NCBI RefSeq assembly: GCF_947504215.1
Contig: NZ_CANNGO010000001.1
Location: 930,001 to 994,000, forward strand
Source of the DNA: an uncultured Ruegeria sp.
Lineage (GTDB): Bacteria > Pseudomonadota > Alphaproteobacteria > Rhodobacterales > Rhodobacteraceae
Length of the DNA: 64,000 bases
Direction of reading: 5' to 3'
The notes beneath the pieces are model-generated. The model was given only the letters and a program-made list of their open reading frames with translations. It had not been told where the DNA came from and made no database searches. Shown here piece after piece: positions 27,696 to 36,701 of the stretch (position 1 is its first letter; every line of letters starts with the position of its first letter). The position numbers and the translations under genes are program-made.

Positions 27696-28021
27696 AGTAG
27701 GAAACCTGAGGGGCCAAGCTGCCGGCCCTGACGGAGAGAACGCGCATCGGAAATTGCTCCGGTCCGATGCGTAACAGGTCGCGATCAACTCCGCGGCATG
27801 TTTTTGGAGTGTGTGTGTAGGCAATTGTGGCCTGCAAAGTACGAGTTTGTCTGGGGGGTCACTATGTTGACCAAAGGAACGCGAAATTGCATCGCTGTGC
27901 CGCGCTATATTGGCCGGGGCACGGGTCTTACCCGCTTGTTTCAAGACAAAGAACCTATCTGCCAGGCAGGCCTGTATGGGGTACGCCGCGCCTGACGGAA
28001 TTTTGAAGGGAACGGAATATT

Positions 28022-28804
28022 ATGACTATTCCAAATTCACTGGCCAGCCCGGCCAGCCACGCTGTTAAAACATCTGCATTACTGAGAGAGGCGCCACGAC
28101 CAGCCACAACGCAGAAGGCACAGCTGCGGCGCTATGAGGTCAGCTGCTTGATGAAAAACGGCGATGTTTCGCAAATGCGCCATATCGCGCCCGCCTTGCC
28201 AATGTTCGAGGATGCATTCTGTGCATTTTCGCGAGGATCTCTGGTGGAAACGGAGCTGGGGCCGGTTGCGATTGAAGATCTGATGCCTGGCGACAGTGTC
28301 CTGACTCAGGACGGCACTTCGCAAAAGGTGCTGTGGAAGGGGTCGGTCACTTTGATCCCTGGGCGCGAGGATTCTCGTGGCCGTACACGACCGCTAACAC
28401 GAATCATGGCAGATACGTTCGGAATGCAAAAGCCGTTGTCTGGCGTGATCGCCGGTCCTGCTGCGCGACTGCTGGGAACGCCTGCGCACCTGCGGCATAT
28501 CCATGGAAACGAGGCTATCCTGACACCTGTGTCCGAATTTCAGGATGGGATGGGCGTTGTCGAAACAATGCCGCCAACACCGGTCGAATTGTTTCACATT
28601 TGCCTGGAAAAGCACAGCGTTATACGGGTGGATGGTTTACAATTTGAAACCTATCACCCAGGTATTAATGCAGTTCGGATGATCAGCCATTCACTTCGGT
28701 CGATCTATCTGAACCTGTTCGCGCATATTGAGTCACTGAACGATTTTGGCCCGCTTTTGATACCACGCGCCGGAGATGGAGAGGTGGACGCAATATCTGC
28801 GTAA
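28022..28804 (+). CDS. Hint domain-containing protein
   Basis: FCAFSRGSLVETELGPVAIEDLMPGDSVLTQDGTSQKVLWKGSVTLIPGRE, Hint-like fold core as found in Rhodobacterales Hint/RTX proteins. Confidence 0.85.
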   Translation: MTIPNSLASPASHAVKTSALLREAPRPATTQKAQLRRYEVSCLMKNGDVSQMRHIAPALPMFEDAFCAFSRGSLVETELGPVAIEDLMPGDSVLTQDGTSQKVLWKGSVTLIPGREDSRGRTRPLTRIMADTFGMQKPLSGVIAGPAARLLGTPAHLRHIHGNEAILTPVSEFQDGMGVVETMPPTPVELFHICLEKHSVIRVDGLQFETYHPGINAVRMISHSLRSIYLNLFAHIESLNDFGPLLIPRAGDGEVDAISA

Positions 28805-28922
28805 GTTGTTAACGATTACTGCAAGTGTGGGGGCATCATGCAGCTATTACTAACCTGGATCATATCATTGGCGGTTGTCGCTATTCTTCCGCCTTGCGAG
28901 GCACATTCAAAGCGCATGCGGT

Positions 28923-29426
28923 TTACGCCGTCCGGTTCATTCGTTCTTCCAGAACGTCGAACGGCACGCCGGGCTCGTCTTTTGCGCCGCGGATAACAAG
29001 CGAAGTCTTAACGCTGGCCACGTTTGGCGTGGTCAGCAGCTCGCCTGTCAGAAACTGTTGAAAACTGCTGAGATCAGGCGCAACGCATTTCAGAATGAAG
29101 TCGACCTCGCCGTTCAGCATATGACATTCCCGGACCAGGGGCCACTCGCGGCAGCGGTCTTCGAAGGCACGCAGTTCTGTCTCGGCCTGACTGTCCAGCC
29201 CGACCATCGCAAAGACCTGAACTTCGAACCCCAGCTCTCGCGAATTCACTTCGGCATGATATCCGGTGATATAACCGGATTCTTCAAGAGTACGAACACG
29301 TCGCAAGCATGGTGGGGCCGAGATTCCGACGCGTTTGGCCAATTCGACGTTGGTCATACGACCGTCCGCCTGCAATTCCGCCAGAATCTTGCGGTCGATT
29401 TCATCCAGCCGAGTCGTGACCATCAA
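28923..29426 (-). CDS. Lrp/AsnC family transcriptional regulator
   Basis: LDEIDRKILAELQADGRMTNVELAKRVGISAPPCLRRVRTLEESGYITGYHAEVN, Lrp HTH plus RAM domain. Confidence 0.96.
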   Translation of the reverse strand: MMVTTRLDEIDRKILAELQADGRMTNVELAKRVGISAPPCLRRVRTLEESGYITGYHAEVNSRELGFEVQVFAMVGLDSQAETELRAFEDRCREWPLVRECHMLNGEVDFILKCVAPDLSSFQQFLTGELLTTPNVASVKTSLVIRGAKDEPGVPFDVLEERMNRTA

Positions 29427-29648
29427 ATGCTCCTGATTTTTCGGTTCTTATATCAGCACCCCGCCTATGCGCAATAATGTTTCGCATCTGCGCAATTTTC
29501 TTTGTTTTCAAAACGCTCGATTTTGTGACCCCATTCCCCAGCTGCATATCTGATGTTGCGCAGGAAGGGGCTTTAAGCCCTGCGCGACCGCCGTTATATC
29601 GGTGCGACGGGCAAATGGCCCAATTCAGCCAGTTCGAGCGGGGGTACC

Positions 29649-30590
29649 ATGGCCGACACACGACACACCAAGGTTCTGATCATCGGATCGGGCCCTGCAG
29701 GATACACCGCCGGCGTTTACGCCAGCCGGGCGATGCTGGAACCGATTCTGGTGCAGGGGATCGAGCCCGGTGGACAATTGACGACCACAACCGAAGTCGA
29801 GAACTGGCCCGGCGATACCGAGGTTCAGGGCCCCGATCTGATGGTTCGGATGCAGGATCACGTCAAAGCAATGGGGTGCGAAGTGATCGGTGACATCATC
29901 AGCGATCTTGATCTGGACCAGCGCCCGTTCGTCGCAAAAGGCGACAGTGGAACCACCTACACCGCCGACGCCGTCATTCTGGCAACCGGTGCCCGCGCAA
30001 AGTGGCTGGGCCTGCCGTCAGAAGAAAAGTTCAAAGGTTTTGGTGTCTCGGCCTGTGCCACTTGTGACGGATTCTTTTACCGTGGACAGGAAATCGTTGT
30101 GATCGGCGGAGGCAATACCGCGGTCGAGGAAGCATTATTCCTGACAAACTTCGCCAGCAAGGTCACTCTGATTCACCGCCGGGATGAGCTGCGCGCCGAA
30201 AAGATCTTGCAGGATCGCCTGTTCAAGAACAACAAGATCGAACCGCTCTGGTTCCACCAACTGGATGAAGTCGTCGGCACAGACACACCGCTGGGTGTCG
30301 AGGGTGTGCGCGTGAAAAACGTCAAAACCGGCGAGATCACCGAGATCCCGTGCAAGGGTGTTTTTGTCGCGATCGGGCATGCGCCTGCCAACGAGTTGGT
30401 CAAAGACAAACTGGACAGCCACATGGGCGGTTACGTGGTCACCAAGCCCGGCTCGACCGAGACCTCGGTCCCTGGTGTGTTTGCGGCGGGTGATCTGACG
30501 GATCACATCTATCGCCAGGCTGTCACAAGTGCCGGAATGGGCTGTATGGCGGCCCTCGATGCTGAACGCTTCCTGGCTGAGCAAGACTAA
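29649..30590 (+). CDS. trxB: thioredoxin-disulfide reductase
   Basis: [78 protein letters not shown]. Confidence 0.98.
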
Positions 30591-30596
30591 TACAAA

Positions 30597-30632
30597 AGCA
30601 GGGTTCTCGGGCGCAGTCCGAAAACCCTGCTT
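30597..30632 (+). terminator. probable terminator hairpin after trxB
   Basis: AGCAGGGTT..CTCGG-GCGCAGT-CCGA..AAACCCTGCT stem, followed by a weak T-rich stretch (TCGCTTTC). Confidence 0.55.
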
Positions 30633-30776
30633 CGCTTTCAAGCGATGCCGCGCATCGGAAGCGGGGCATCGCCTCACCCAATGAGCAATGATTTTGCGTC
30701 GATTCCAGTCGACTGAAATCGCAGCTTGGCTTGACCCCCGCGCAGAGGCCCAGCAAACTTGCGCTGAACAGGATGA

Positions 30777-32483
30777 ATGCGGGTGACAGCATTGGACAAC
30801 GCTCTTTGGCGCGGCGGGTGGACAACCCGCCTTAGGATCGGCAGCGGCCTCGTTCTATTCACCTTCGCATTTTTTCATTTCATAAATATTGGCTTAGGCC
30901 TTTTTCACACCGACTATCTTCACGGCATGCAAGACGGGCGGCAAGCGATCACCCGCCACAACTTAATAAGCGCGCTTTTCTACGCGGCATTGTTCGTACA
31001 TGCTGGCTTGGCCCTTGCTTCAATCGCTCAGCGCAGAACCCTGCGCATGCCTATTGGTTCCGCTTTGCAGATCGTGCTCGGACTACTGATCCCGCTGCAA
31101 TTGATCTCGCACATCGTCCAGACGCGCGTTGCTCATGAGGTCTACGATGTCAATGACGAGATGGGCTATATCATTGTCCTGATGTGGCCCAACTCGGCGA
31201 TATGGATGCAGAGCCTTTTGTTACTAATCGTTTGGGTACATGGCTGCATCGGCCTGCACATGTGGTTGCGACTGACCCATTGGTGGCGCAACACGGTGCC
31301 TTATCTGATCGGGTTGGCGGTGTTCATACCGTCCTTTGCGCTAGCCGGGTTGCTGACCGAGGGTCGACGCATCTGGTCCGATTTTTCAGACGAATTTCTG
31401 CGCGAACAGTATGTTGAACACTACAATTGGCCGTCACCCGAGGCGTTCCAAACCATGTTCAGCATTAAAGACAATGCTCTGATTGCGTTTTGGTTCGCGT
31501 TGGGTGCAACGGCCTTGTTCTATGTTGGCCGCAAATTGTGGCGGCGCAGACACTCGGTGCGTATCACTTATGCACGAGGGCCCGAAGTCGTGGCAGAAAA
31601 AGGCATGACTCTGTTGGAGATATCCCAAGCCAACGGCGTTCCACACACCGCGCTATGCGGCGGCAAAGGGCGGTGCACCACCTGTCGCGTCATTGTCGAG
31701 GATGGGGCAGACAGCTTGCCTCCGGCTGGCGATGTCGAAGCGCGCAGCCTGGCTGCCGTTGGCGCATCCGGACAAACAAGGCTGGCGTGCCAAATTCGCC
31801 CAACCGAACCACTCACTGTTTTTCGCGTTTTCAGACCCGATGGTGGCCGCAATCGCGGGCACGCAAGTCAGGGACAGGAACGACAACTGGCTGTTTTGTT
31901 TCTGGACATGCGCGGTTTTACTGCGCGCACCACTGGGCAGCTGCCCTATGACATCGTCTTTCTGCTGAACCGTTTTTTTGACGCGATTGTCCCGGCGATC
32001 ACCGCCGAGGGTGGAGTTGTGGACAAATACATGGGTGACGGGCTGCTCGCGGTTTTTGAAAAACGTGATGCCTCCAGCTCAGCCCGCGCCGGGTTGAAGG
32101 CTGCGATCGACATCAGCCGGGCGCTGGACAGGTTCAACGAGCAATTGGAAGCGGAAGGTAGCCCCCGGATTCGCATCGGGATGGGGTTGCATCTGGGTGA
32201 TCTGGTCTTGGGTGAGATTGGCGCGGCCGGCCACGCGTCACGGACCATCATCGGCGACGCAGTGAACGTTGCGAGCCGCCTTGAGAGCGAAACCAAGGCG
32301 TTAGGTGTTGAGTTACTGGTCTCAGACGAGCTGATTCAGGCAGCAGACGTTGCAATCAACCCGGATGAGGTGCGCTTGTTTCAGCTGCGCGGCGTCACGC
32401 AACCTGTTCCTGCCCTACCAGTGGCCCGCGCATCAGACTTGGACCAATCAGTCCATGGTATGGAACACATATACTCAGGCTGA
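30777..32483 (+). CDS. membrane-anchored [2Fe-2S] ferredoxin-class III adenylate cyclase fusion
   Basis: aa 1-255 polytopic with His-bearing helices (AFFHFIN, LFVHAGLA, LISHIVQTRVAHEV, VHGCIGLHMWLRLTHWW); aa about 261-355 ferredoxin with ALCGGKGRCTTC..LAC; aa about 370-545 cyclase with FLDMRGFTART, VVDKYMGDGLLAVF, TIIGDAVNVASRLES. Confidence 0.9.
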   Translation: MRVTALDNALWRGGWTTRLRIGSGLVLFTFAFFHFINIGLGLFHTDYLHGMQDGRQAITRHNLISALFYAALFVHAGLALASIAQRRTLRMPIGSALQIVLGLLIPLQLISHIVQTRVAHEVYDVNDEMGYIIVLMWPNSAIWMQSLLLLIVWVHGCIGLHMWLRLTHWWRNTVPYLIGLAVFIPSFALAGLLTEGRRIWSDFSDEFLREQYVEHYNWPSPEAFQTMFSIKDNALIAFWFALGATALFYVGRKLWRRRHSVRITYARGPEVVAEKGMTLLEISQANGVPHTALCGGKGRCTTCRVIVEDGADSLPPAGDVEARSLAAVGASGQTRLACQIRPTEPLTVFRVFRPDGGRNRGHASQGQERQLAVLFLDMRGFTARTTGQLPYDIVFLLNRFFDAIVPAITAEGGVVDKYMGDGLLAVFEKRDASSSARAGLKAAIDISRALDRFNEQLEAEGSPRIRIGMGLHLGDLVLGEIGAAGHASRTIIGDAVNVASRLESETKALGVELLVSDELIQAADVAINPDEVRLFQLRGVTQPVPALPVARASDLDQSVHGMEHIYSG

Positions 32484-32679
32484 TTGGATTGTTGCCACTT
32501 GGCGGAACCAAAGTCGCGTTTTCGGCGCCTGACCGGAAATTCCTTCCCTTCCGGTGAAAATCAGCGCATATCGTCCTTTGTTTCATTGATGTCGGTGGAC
32601 TCCGCTTAATAGTCGGGGCAAATGCCCTGCAAACCGCCTGGAATCACCGGCAATACAAAACTGCTATAAGAGTATTCTG

Positions 32680-34395
32680 ATGACGATGTTAAGCAATTTG
32701 GCCCCAATCCCCGAACTTTATGTGTCGTATGACTCGGCCCTGAAATTGAAAGTCGAAGCCGCAGACCTGACCAGTTGGGACCTGAGCCCACGCCAGATCT
32801 GCGATCTGGAGCTGTTGATGAACGGTGGGTTCAACCCACTCAAAGGGTTCCTTGGTGAAGCAGATTACGACAACGTGGTCGAGAATATGCGTTTGGCAGA
32901 CGGGACGCTTTGGCCGATGCCAATCACTTTGGACGTCAGCGAAGACTTTGCAGAAAAAATTGAGCTGGGTCAGGACATCGCCCTGCGCGATCAGGAAGGT
33001 GTCATTCTGGGCACCATGACCGTCACCGACCGCTGGACGCCGAACAAGGCGCGCGAGGCTGAAAAAGTCTTTGGCGCCGACGATGATGCACACCCGGCGG
33101 TGAACTACCTGCACAACCATGCTGGCAAGGTCTATCTGGGCGGCCCCGTGGTCGGCATCCAGCAACCGGTTCACTATGACTTCCGCGCGCGCCGCGACAC
33201 ACCAAACGAACTGCGTGCTTATTTCCGCAAGCTGGGCTGGCGTCGCATCGTGGCGTTCCAAACCCGCAACCCGCTGCACCGTGCGCATCAGGAACTGACC
33301 TTCCGCGCCGCCAAAGAAGCTCAGGCCAACCTTCTGATCCATCCGGTTGTCGGCATGACCAAGCCCGGCGACGTGGACCATTTCACCCGCGTCCGCTGCT
33401 ACGAGGCGGTGTTGGACAAATACCCAGCCTCGACCACCTCGATGTCGCTGCTGAACCTGGCGATGCGCATGGCGGGCCCGCGTGAGGCGGTCTGGCACGG
33501 CCTGATCCGCGCCAACCACGGGTGCACTCACTTCATCGTTGGCCGAGACCACGCCGGCCCCGGAAAGAATGCGGCCGGTGAGGACTTTTATGGCCCCTAT
33601 GATGCGCAGGACCTGTTCCGCCAGTTCCAGGATGAGATCGGCGTTGAAATGGTCGATTTCAAACACATGGTCTATGTGCAGGAACGTGCCCAGTACGAGC
33701 CTAATGACGAGATCGAAGACAAAGAAAACGTCACAATCCTCAATATCTCGGGCACCGAACTGCGCCGCCGCTTGTCTGAAGGTTTGGAAATCCCCGAATG
33801 GTTCAGCTTCCCCGAGGTTGTGACCGAGCTGCGCAAGACCAAACCGCCGCGCAGCCAGCAAGGGTTTACCGTCTTCTTTACTGGCTTCTCGGGCTCAGGC
33901 AAGTCGACCATCGCCAACGCGCTTATGGTCAAACTGATGGAGATGGGTGGGCGTCCTGTCACCTTGCTGGACGGCGACATCGTCCGGAAAAACCTGTCGT
34001 CGGAATTGGGCTTTTCGAAAGAGCATCGTGACCTGAACATCCGCCGCATCGGTTATGTGGCCAGCGAAATCACCAAGAATGGTGGTATCGCAATCTGCGC
34101 GCCAATTGCACCCTATGCCACGACCCGCCGCGCGGTGCGTGAAGACATCGAACAGTTCGGCGCGTTTTGTGAAGTGCATGTGGCAACCAGCATCGAAGAA
34201 TGCGAACGCCGCGACCGTAAGGGTTTGTACAAGCTGGCAAGGGAGGGCAAGATCAAGGAATTCACTGGCATCTCGGACCCTTATGACGTTCCAGCCAACC
34301 CCGAACTGAGCGTAGAGACCGAAAATGTTGAAGTCGACAATTGCGCCCATCAGGTTCTGCTGAAGCTCGAAAGTATGGGCCTGATCGCAGGCTAG
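32680..34395 (+). CDS. bifunctional sulfate adenylyltransferase / adenylylsulfate kinase
   Basis: N-terminal ATP sulfurylase (VAFQTRNPLHRAHQELTFRAA, GRDHAGPGKN), C-terminal APS kinase (GFTVFFTGFSGSGKSTIANALMVKL, LLDGDIVRKNLSSELGFSKEHRDLNIRRIG). Confidence 0.97.
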   Translation: MTMLSNLAPIPELYVSYDSALKLKVEAADLTSWDLSPRQICDLELLMNGGFNPLKGFLGEADYDNVVENMRLADGTLWPMPITLDVSEDFAEKIELGQDIALRDQEGVILGTMTVTDRWTPNKAREAEKVFGADDDAHPAVNYLHNHAGKVYLGGPVVGIQQPVHYDFRARRDTPNELRAYFRKLGWRRIVAFQTRNPLHRAHQELTFRAAKEAQANLLIHPVVGMTKPGDVDHFTRVRCYEAVLDKYPASTTSMSLLNLAMRMAGPREAVWHGLIRANHGCTHFIVGRDHAGPGKNAAGEDFYGPYDAQDLFRQFQDEIGVEMVDFKHMVYVQERAQYEPNDEIEDKENVTILNISGTELRRRLSEGLEIPEWFSFPEVVTELRKTKPPRSQQGFTVFFTGFSGSGKSTIANALMVKLMEMGGRPVTLLDGDIVRKNLSSELGFSKEHRDLNIRRIGYVASEITKNGGIAICAPIAPYATTRRAVREDIEQFGAFCEVHVATSIEECERRDRKGLYKLAREGKIKEFTGISDPYDVPANPELSVETENVEVDNCAHQVLLKLESMGLIAG

Positions 34396-34411
34396 TAGAC
34401 CCGCGCGACGA

Positions 34412-34458
34412 AAAAATCAAAGGGCAGCGCTTGAACAAAGCACTGCCCTTCTCATTTT
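34412..34458. terminator. bidirectional terminator between convergent sat/cysC and the heme peroxidase
   Basis: AAAAAATCAAAGGGCAGcGC-TTGAACAAA-GCaCTGCCCTTCTCATTTTT: near-perfect stem with A-tract on one side and T-tract on the other. Confidence 0.75.
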
Positions 34459-36017
34459 TAGTTTCGGCCGTTTGCGATTGTGTTCGCAACATCGTTGGCA
34501 TCAATCGGCGCGCCAGAAGCCCGCAATAGATCGCCAACCTCCCAGTCCCCGCCGTTCACGGGTGCCGGATTGTCCAGCAGCGACATCAGATCGGCGTCGT
34601 CATTTGGCTTCCAGTTCGGCATGTTGCGCACAAAGGACATCGGATCGCCGTCCAGCAACCCTCCGAACACCTCAGCAACGATGGTACCACCCACTGCCCC
34701 GAGCATGCGACCCGAGTTGTTTGCCGGAAGAATTTGGCTTTCTTTCAAAATGTAGTGCCACAAGATATCCTCATGAGGATCGTTGATCGCATGCGGTGTC
34801 AAACCCATCCGCTGTGCCACATCAGAGCCTTTTGGCAACTCCAGACGCATTGAGCGTAACAGATTCAGGAAGGCCAGCATGTTGGGCTTGGGTGCCGGGC
34901 CTTCATCCAACGCAAAGACCGCCGACGACAGCTTTGTGTCAATCCGTCTGGCAGGCTGCGGGAAAGGTCCGCCTGAATTGATGTCGAAGAACCAATCCCA
35001 TTGCACCGTATGGCGATGCGGGAAGGAGCGGAAACCGCGCAGGTCGTGGCGGATTTTTCCTTGGTTATCCTCGGGGCCATCGGGGTGGAAGATCGGCAGC
35101 TCTTTTCCAAATCCAAGCCCGGTATCGTTATCATCGTTAACGTTGACCTGATATCCTGGACGTATCAGTGAATGGCCAAAGCGATAGGCCGCCACAGAAA
35201 ACTCGACCGGCATAAACGGCTGATAGTTCCAATCATAAACGGTGCCGTTGAATTTGTGGTTGTCGGACTTGTCCAGAACCCTGGTCCAAATTGCATCGCT
35301 GACCAGGCGTTTAATGAAGTCGTTCCACACAACGTATTGATAGAACCAACGCACTTTGCGCTGTGCTTCCTGAAACCTTTCGCCGTCAAAACCGAACTCG
35401 GTCGTCTCATCATCCGGATCACCGGTTGCCAGCTTCTGCATGACCCGGTTGTGCAGTCGCAACATGGCCAACTGGAACTGGGAAACGATCACATTCTCAT
35501 CGTTTCGCATGTCGCCAATAATGGCGCGCCCCTGCCGGTTGCGCAGAAGGTCCGGTTCTTTCGAACCCGCGATGTCCTTGTCGCCCGTCCAGTCCTTCTC
35601 AGTTGTCCCAAGCAGGAACACGCCACCACGATTCTTGTCGTACATAAAAGGTTCATCTGCCGGGCCTTCGCCATAGAGACAATCCAGATCAAGGCGTGGC
35701 GTGCGAAAGTTTTCAAGCTTCTCAGGATCGCTTTGACGCATCAGAGACGAGGTTGGGTCAAACGTGATGTCGTGATCCACGAACTGACCAAAATAGGTGT
35801 AACCCGCGGGCAGATTTGCATTGTCCAGGTTGTCTTGCCCGGCCGTTTCGCTCATCTCGTTAGTCGCAAAATCGCGTAACGCTGCGACGGCTGTGGCGTC
35901 ATCGCCATGGGGGGACCGCCACGGTGGAAGTTCACGAAACAACCTTCCGAATGGACCTTTGTAGTTCTTGGATCTGGGGAGGCTGGTAATGCCATACCTG
36001 GATGACGAAACGCTCAT
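34458..36017 (-). CDS. animal-type heme peroxidase family protein
   Basis: AGYTYFGQFVDHDITFDPTSSL (distal His motif GQFxDHDIT), SVAAYRFGHSLIRPGYQ (proximal His context), VSQFQLAMLRLHNRVMQ; 519 aa. Confidence 0.88.
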   Translation of the reverse strand: MSVSSSRYGITSLPRSKNYKGPFGRLFRELPPWRSPHGDDATAVAALRDFATNEMSETAGQDNLDNANLPAGYTYFGQFVDHDITFDPTSSLMRQSDPEKLENFRTPRLDLDCLYGEGPADEPFMYDKNRGGVFLLGTTEKDWTGDKDIAGSKEPDLLRNRQGRAIIGDMRNDENVIVSQFQLAMLRLHNRVMQKLATGDPDDETTEFGFDGERFQEAQRKVRWFYQYVVWNDFIKRLVSDAIWTRVLDKSDNHKFNGTVYDWNYQPFMPVEFSVAAYRFGHSLIRPGYQVNVNDDNDTGLGFGKELPIFHPDGPEDNQGKIRHDLRGFRSFPHRHTVQWDWFFDINSGGPFPQPARRIDTKLSSAVFALDEGPAPKPNMLAFLNLLRSMRLELPKGSDVAQRMGLTPHAINDPHEDILWHYILKESQILPANNSGRMLGAVGGTIVAEVFGGLLDGDPMSFVRNMPNWKPNDDADLMSLLDNPAPVNGGDWEVGDLLRASGAPIDANDVANTIANGRN

Positions 36018-36701
36018 CAAAGTGCTCCTAAAATAATACTCGTTACTATTCAAACGGCCCCTCATCGGGCGCAAAATTGACAAAATTTAGTTCTCAAAAA
36101 TGCCGCCCGAACCCGCAAAATACCGGGACGACCGCGAAACAATGTTACCACGAAACGCGTGGAAACGATAGATTCATAAGTTATCCGCGCAAAAAACAGC
36201 CAGTGCTTGCAGTTCGTTCAATCATTGCAATTGCTTGCACCAAGGGACAATCATCCGTCGCACGCCAGGATGAAATCTCGGCCCGAAGTATTTTCACCGC
36301 TCGTCTTTCGAATTCTCAATAGTCCACGGCCTGCGTTTGGGCACTTTTTTGACGCCGTCAGACGCATTTTATTGTACTCTGGGCTGGCGGTATTGATGGC
36401 TGTTTGAATATCGTCGTGCGTTTCGCGCAGAATCATGCCGGCAGTGTCAAAGAAATCACCGATGTTGGGGCCCTCCCGCTAGATCGGTACGGAAAGATAC
36501 AGAACCGCATTGGTCAGTTCTCGTGAGAGATAGTCCCTCTCGCACACCCACTCGAGGACCGAATGACGCAATTAATGCCCCGCGAGATCTCGCTTGGCTC
36601 AGGTGGTCAAGGAACAGAACTTGGTCCTTTCGGACAACAATTAGCCCCATCCCGGGACCTTCGTCACGCCATAGCGCAGAAGGGAATAGCTGCCTGAGTC
36701 A

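Follow-up and report, generated by a model that had tools for sequence, protein, structure and literature searches.

What does the 568-residue open reading frame described here encode, and to what signal might its product respond? The window, that is, the whole stretch of 64,000 nucleotides that was analysed, comes from an uncultured Ruegeria sp. (contig NZ_CANNGO010000001.1, positions 930,001 to 994,000). A first-pass annotation, made from the letters of the DNA alone, had read the frame as a three-module protein made up of a membrane anchor, a ferredoxin and a cyclase, and this is borne out by Pfam, AlphaFold2 and the alignment of individual residues. The frame runs uninterrupted from ATG to stop, and both Pfam and AlphaFold2 give the chain order as a six-transmembrane anchor, then a Fer2 ferredoxin, then a class III cyclase. 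Fer2 matched residues 270-343 (E = 5e-9) and Guanylate_cyc matched residues 369-512 (E = 1e-10), both above the Pfam cut-off. The AlphaFold2 model of the full protein, calculated with a 51-row alignment, has a pLDDT of 88.9 and a pTM of 0.66, and it shows six long helices, the ferredoxin and the cyclase; structure prediction had been suggested as a check on the three domains, and it returned each of them. A frameshift or pseudogene is ruled out for the window copy by the single open frame and the conserved residues. The in-frame stops in some matches from the same genus fall outside the true ends of their open frames.

Because TTG 30792 is conserved in seven aligned relatives, where GGGTGA or AGGTGA precedes it, while ATG 30777 is missing in some relatives and several have a stop codon immediately before the equivalent of residue 6, the true start is probably TTG 30792, which would give a protein of 563 residues. 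The residue numbers used throughout are those of the 568-residue version from ATG 30777. A promoter scan gave matches at chance level only, and an Rfam search of positions 28000-36500 gave no match. The coordinates of the features are collected in Table 1.

Table 1. Features of the cyaC locus, in window coordinates, with the basis of each assignment.
Feature	Position	Strand	Basis or remark
Gene for the probable CyaC-type adenylate cyclase	30777..32483	+	568 aa from ATG 30777; probably 563 aa from TTG 30792
Probable start region	30780..30794	+	Conserved TTG 30792-30794, GGGTGA ribosome-binding-like stretch just 5'; alignment of 7 relatives
Membrane anchor, residues 1-258, predicted diheme QFR/SQR type	30777..31550	+	AlphaFold2, Foldseek 1e7p_C and 5xmj_C, charge distribution
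H34, candidate distal-heme ligand, helix 1	30876..30878	+	Invariant 51/51
H75, candidate proximal-heme ligand, helix 2	30999..31001	+	Invariant 51/51
H112, candidate distal-heme ligand, helix 3	31110..31112	+	Invariant 51/51
H155, candidate proximal-heme ligand, helix 4	31239..31241	+	Invariant 51/51
[2Fe-2S] ferredoxin domain, residues 259-352	31551..31832	+	Pfam Fer2, PDB matches to adrenodoxin/isc-type ferredoxins, invariant Cys
Predicted cluster ligands C294, C300, C303, C338	Codons at 31656, 31674, 31683, 31788	+	Invariant Cys
Class III (IIIb, K/T type) cyclase catalytic domain, residues 366-550	31872..32426	+	Pfam, PDB sequence, Foldseek 1wc1 and 2w01
Strong hairpin past trxB, terminator-like, weak T tail	30597..30631	+	Separates trxB from cyaC

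No Pfam family matched the first 258 residues. Modelled alone with AlphaFold2, they give a pLDDT of 94.8 and a pTM of 0.89, with helices at residues 15-42, 62-85, 93-123, 141-164, 170-203 and 221-257. Lys and Arg are found at the N-terminus, in loops 2-3 and 4-5, and past helix 6, and acidic residues in loops 3-4 and 5-6. Because of this distribution of charge, both termini are predicted to be cytoplasmic, and hence the ferredoxin and the cyclase as well. A Foldseek search of the anchor model against 350,542 PDB chains placed QFR C-subunits at ranks 1 and 2, namely 1e7p_C from W. succinogenes (probability 0.99, TM 0.53) and 5xmj_C from D. gigas, with E-values that are weak (0.42 and 2.1, respectively); subsequent matches are unrelated and have probabilities <0.1. 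The best PDB match of the anchor sequence profile is 6lum_C, a succinate dehydrogenase C-subunit (E = 0.054). These matches agree with the SDH/FRD-like anchor proposed from the sequence, and the model indicates that the anchor is related to the cytochrome b of fumarate reductase and succinate dehydrogenase. The diheme QFR C-subunits are its closest solved folds and likewise carry their His in four successive helices. Unlike them, however, the window anchor is fused to a ferredoxin and a cyclase, has no flavoprotein/Fe-S subunit partner, and shares only 13-16% identity with them.

Which histidines could hold hemes? The anchor contains 11 His. H34, H75, H112 and H155 are invariant in all 51 rows of the alignment, which spans many families and includes 3 rows without a cyclase, and they are conserved even in these cyclase-free homologs. 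Only 20 columns are invariant over the 51 rows, the four His and four Cys among them. Within the anchor there are 8 invariant columns, and 4 of these are His (hypergeometric P = 1.2e-4, a value that is indicative only, since kinship among the rows is ignored). The spacing of the four is almost fixed at HX40HX36HX41-45H, give or take one residue in a few rows, and is HX40HX36HX42H in the window protein. The first-pass annotation had made its reading hinge on the conservation of the transmembrane His, and this is what the alignment shows for these four. It had, however, listed more of them, and H120, H161 and H168 vary among the homologs; the idea that every listed His is a heme ligand is ruled out, as only four are conserved. 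Going by fumarate reductase subunit C, His one and three of the series would be ligands to the distal heme, and His two and four ligands to the proximal one. At position 38, His is found in 28 of 29 distant homologs, and Ile in the clade of the window protein.

In the ferredoxin, the spacing CX5CX2CX34C is as previously described and almost fixed among the homologs, a few rows being longer or shorter by one residue, and all four Cys are invariant (51/51). This pattern is the plant/adrenodoxin-type [2Fe-2S] ligand set, recognized here from the sequence. The metal-binding Asp, the K/T adenine residues and the transition-state motif that had been pointed out in the cyclase are also found, so that all six catalytic residues are present. 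D377 and D421 are the metal Asp (kept in 46 and 48 of the 48 full-length homologs, respectively), K417 and T490 are the adenine pair (42 and 46), and N497 and R501 are the transition-state pair (43 and 46). A K/T adenine pair is characteristic of class IIIb cyclases of the adenylate type. Judged by these residues, the enzyme is an adenylate-type and not a guanylate-type cyclase, with a complete active site. The nearest solved cyclase structures, Cya2 (2w01) and Spirulina CyaC (1wc1), share the catalytic fold and residues, but their sensory architecture is different, and the name CyaC is shared with the Spirulina enzyme by coincidence. Because the genome holds 15 cyclase-domain matches, this cyclase is one of many possible sources of cAMP.

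Does this architecture represent a new class? CyaC of S. meliloti (SMc01818) was reportedly described by Wissig et al. in 2019 as a diheme-b, quinone-responsive adenylate cyclase. Beltz et al. (2016) had defined a group of class IIIb cyclases, 'cluster 1', from Alpha- and Betaproteobacteria, with a ferredoxin between a six-transmembrane anchor and the catalytic domain; these anchors resemble the cytochrome b of fumarate reductase/succinate dehydrogenase and have four spaced intramembrane His, and two hemes were confidently predicted (PMC4821796). A 2023 paper summarizes that CyaC binds two hemes b that ubiquinone can oxidize or reduce; it also demonstrates the [2Fe-2S] cluster of CyaC and introduces CycR and Clr as partners (PMC10463352). 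A new class is ruled out, since the architecture with its tetra-His anchor was published in 2016 and the biochemistry of CyaC later (PMC4821796, PMC10463352). The window protein resembles cluster 1 in ferredoxin position, four His and anchor type, with no class-defining difference (PMC4821796).

For comparison, S. meliloti CyaC was represented by its homologs from two close relatives, whose genomes are 91% identical to the S. meliloti pSymB over 2.5 kb (S. medicae, about 83%). Each of these stand-in genomes contains one full-length homolog. The window protein is 35-36% identical to the two over about 560 residues (561 aa), with values of 29-30% for the anchor, 38-39% for the ferredoxin, where the Cys spacing is identical, and 40% for the cyclase. 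It also has the same domain order, six helices, four invariant His and K/T adenylate-type site. The earlier caution that the protein may belong with CyaC and not to a new class was right, and by its sequence it falls into the same family. In one stand-in genome (L248), the cyclase gene adjoins a TetR gene, followed by amidohydrolase-like and dihydropyrimidinase-like genes; in S. meliloti, smc01818 adjoins smc01819. In contrast, the window cyaC lies between trxB and sat/cysC with no CycR-like gene adjacent, and the nearest CycR-like TetR gene (60% identity) is at G000:C1:187146, about 770 kb along the contig from cyaC at 960777. Ile in place of His at position 38 is a further difference from S. 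meliloti CyaC.

A phylogeny against CyaC had been proposed, and in the maximum likelihood tree, with the two close relatives standing for S. meliloti, the window clade (the genus together with G058 and G101) forms its own group with support of 100/100. The Sinorhizobium, Rhizobium, Agrobacterium and Azospirillum proteins group separately, and the branches between lack resolution. The function of CyaC would accordingly be carried over a long branch, as the window clade appears to lie apart from the Sinorhizobium/Rhizobium/Azospirillum clade. It is possible, though we consider it rather doubtful, that the clade found in this genus and its family forms a CyaC branch of distinct function, with no adjacent CycR, altered surroundings of the distal heme (Ile38) and a fixed site between trxB and sat/cysC. 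If so, its midpoint potential, its signal or the regulator that it feeds might not be those of S. meliloti CyaC.

Full-length homologs occur commonly in the sampled Alphaproteobacteria and in Rhizobiaceae, where one, in Rhizobium etli CIAT 652, is annotated cyaCa. All 54 genomes searched in the genus of the window, the window genome included, carry cyaC. Across the family, sampled almost entirely at one genome per genus, the anchor-ferredoxin unit is found in only 50 of 397 genomes, and about one genus in eight carries cyaC. Many other genera have the gene at the same site, so that its presence from early on, followed by repeated loss, is a better fit than a recent insertion in the genus. With the window protein, the respiratory-redox cAMP sensors, a class that is known but has received little study, reach a further alphaproteobacterial family, and the protein is a diverged test case for what is essential in the anchor: four His, four Cys and little else. 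On plasmids of Rhizobium, Phyllobacterium and Sinorhizobium (L128, L130, L131), the genes next to a CyaC homolog are for glycosyltransferase, polysaccharide deacetylase and FkbM methyltransferase; this neighbourhood is conserved and unlike that of either S. meliloti cyaC or the window.

How might the window protein work? On the observed sequence, domain order, predicted fold and invariance of ligand and catalytic residues, we consider it very probable that this is a membrane adenylate cyclase of the CyaC type that is under redox control, with a signal that runs from quinone through two hemes and an Fe-S center to cAMP. In the heme and cluster occupancy and electron path that we infer, the six-helix anchor probably carries two b hemes, and with the His paired as in fumarate reductase subunit C, H34 and H112 would hold the distal heme and H75 and H155 the proximal heme. 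Quinone specificity would be for ubiquinone, with the hemes exchanging electrons with the ubiquinone pool and relaying their electron state to the cytoplasmic [2Fe-2S] cluster. The cluster and a short linker would then pass the signal to a homodimeric class III cyclase, which would convert ATP to cAMP, the presumed product, and so act on putative downstream targets. The direction of the switch is assigned by analogy with S. meliloti CyaC, so that oxidation would turn the cyclase on. The passage of quinone or respiratory redox state through heme and Fe-S to cAMP, as first proposed from the sequence, is the reading with the best support, and the mechanism published for CyaC, the closest characterized relative, is the same (PMC10463352).

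The heme and Fe-S centers of an adenylate cyclase could also sense oxygen, NO or a cellular reductant (for example through a ferredoxin reductase) in place of quinone. By type, the ferredoxin domain belongs with the adrenodoxin/isc ferredoxins, which are served by a reductase, and because anchor-free cyclases with the same ferredoxin exist (L119, L120, L121), a ferredoxin of this kind can receive electrons without hemes. However, the anchor is similar to fumarate reductase subunits that react with quinone, its four His never vary, and a response of CyaC to ubiquinone has been reported (PMC10463352), so we regard sensing of a signal other than quinone as distinctly unlikely. Loss of redox control, or a silent cyclase domain in a protein kept for another role, has a precedent in two paralogs (L092, L093) that have lost D377, N497 and R501 but kept the four His and four Cys; since the window protein has all six catalytic residues and its clade is conserved throughout the genus, we hold this to be extremely improbable here.

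Could the cyclase instead be part of a trxB-cyaC-sat/cysC unit that serves thiol redox or sulfate assimilation? The annotation had suggested a link to redox or sulfur physiology from these neighbours, and the sampled genus members, like many other genera of the family, do keep this order. However, in genomes that lack cyaC, trxB often directly adjoins sat/cysC, a strong hairpin lies 3' of trxB (-29.6 kcal/mol over 30590-30650, z = -5.05), about 200 bases separate cyaC from sat/cysC, and homologs elsewhere in the class have unrelated neighbourhoods. Such a unit is very unlikely, and trxB and sat/cysC as a strong functional context for cyaC are ruled out by the neighbourhoods without cyaC and by the trxB hairpin. 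The neighbourhood is old and stable; by itself it is no link between the cyclase and the metabolism of thiols or sulfate, and it says little on sulfur metabolism because the trxB and sat/cysC pair exists without cyaC. Two other window genes were noted here. An animal-type haem peroxidase (PF03098, E = 5e-21, 541 aa) is encoded at 34458-36083 on the minus strand, beside sat/cysC, and a Hint-domain protein (PF13403, E = 4e-32) at 28022-28804 on the plus strand, upstream of an Lrp/AsnC regulator gene.

Several relatives depart from the three-module plan. In three members of the family and one of another family, an anchor-ferredoxin protein without a cyclase is followed by a gene for an MscS-family channel (L094:1188-4651, L095:6920-10008, L096:4767-8095 and L294). 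The three of these proteins that were fully read have 374-386 residues, the three that were aligned keep all four His and the Cys, and the two genes overlap by 4 nt in three of the four loci. This arrangement suggests a redox or quinone sensor coupled to an MscS-type channel, and a redox-sensing module that is portable and can drive more than one kind of output. The pairing is more novel than the cyclase finding itself. Two of the anchor-free proteins, L119:6074-7498 and L121:6211-7722, have a C-terminal Rieske domain after the ferredoxin and cyclase, and L121 has two N-terminal CDGSH fingers as well, so that a single cyclase bears Fe-S domains of three kinds. In the open-access literature, we found no paper on anchor-ferredoxin/MscS pairs or on Rieske-bearing cyclases. 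The CyaC-like paralogs at L092:6004-7728 and L093:6546-8264, which belong to two other species of the window's genus, have Lys in place of D377. With their heme and Fe-S ligand residues intact, their sequences indicate that they are likely redox sensors with a catalytically dead output. A CyaC homolog at L097:6854-8568 lies in two overlapping frames, one for the anchor-ferredoxin and one for the cyclase, through either a frameshift or an assembly error.
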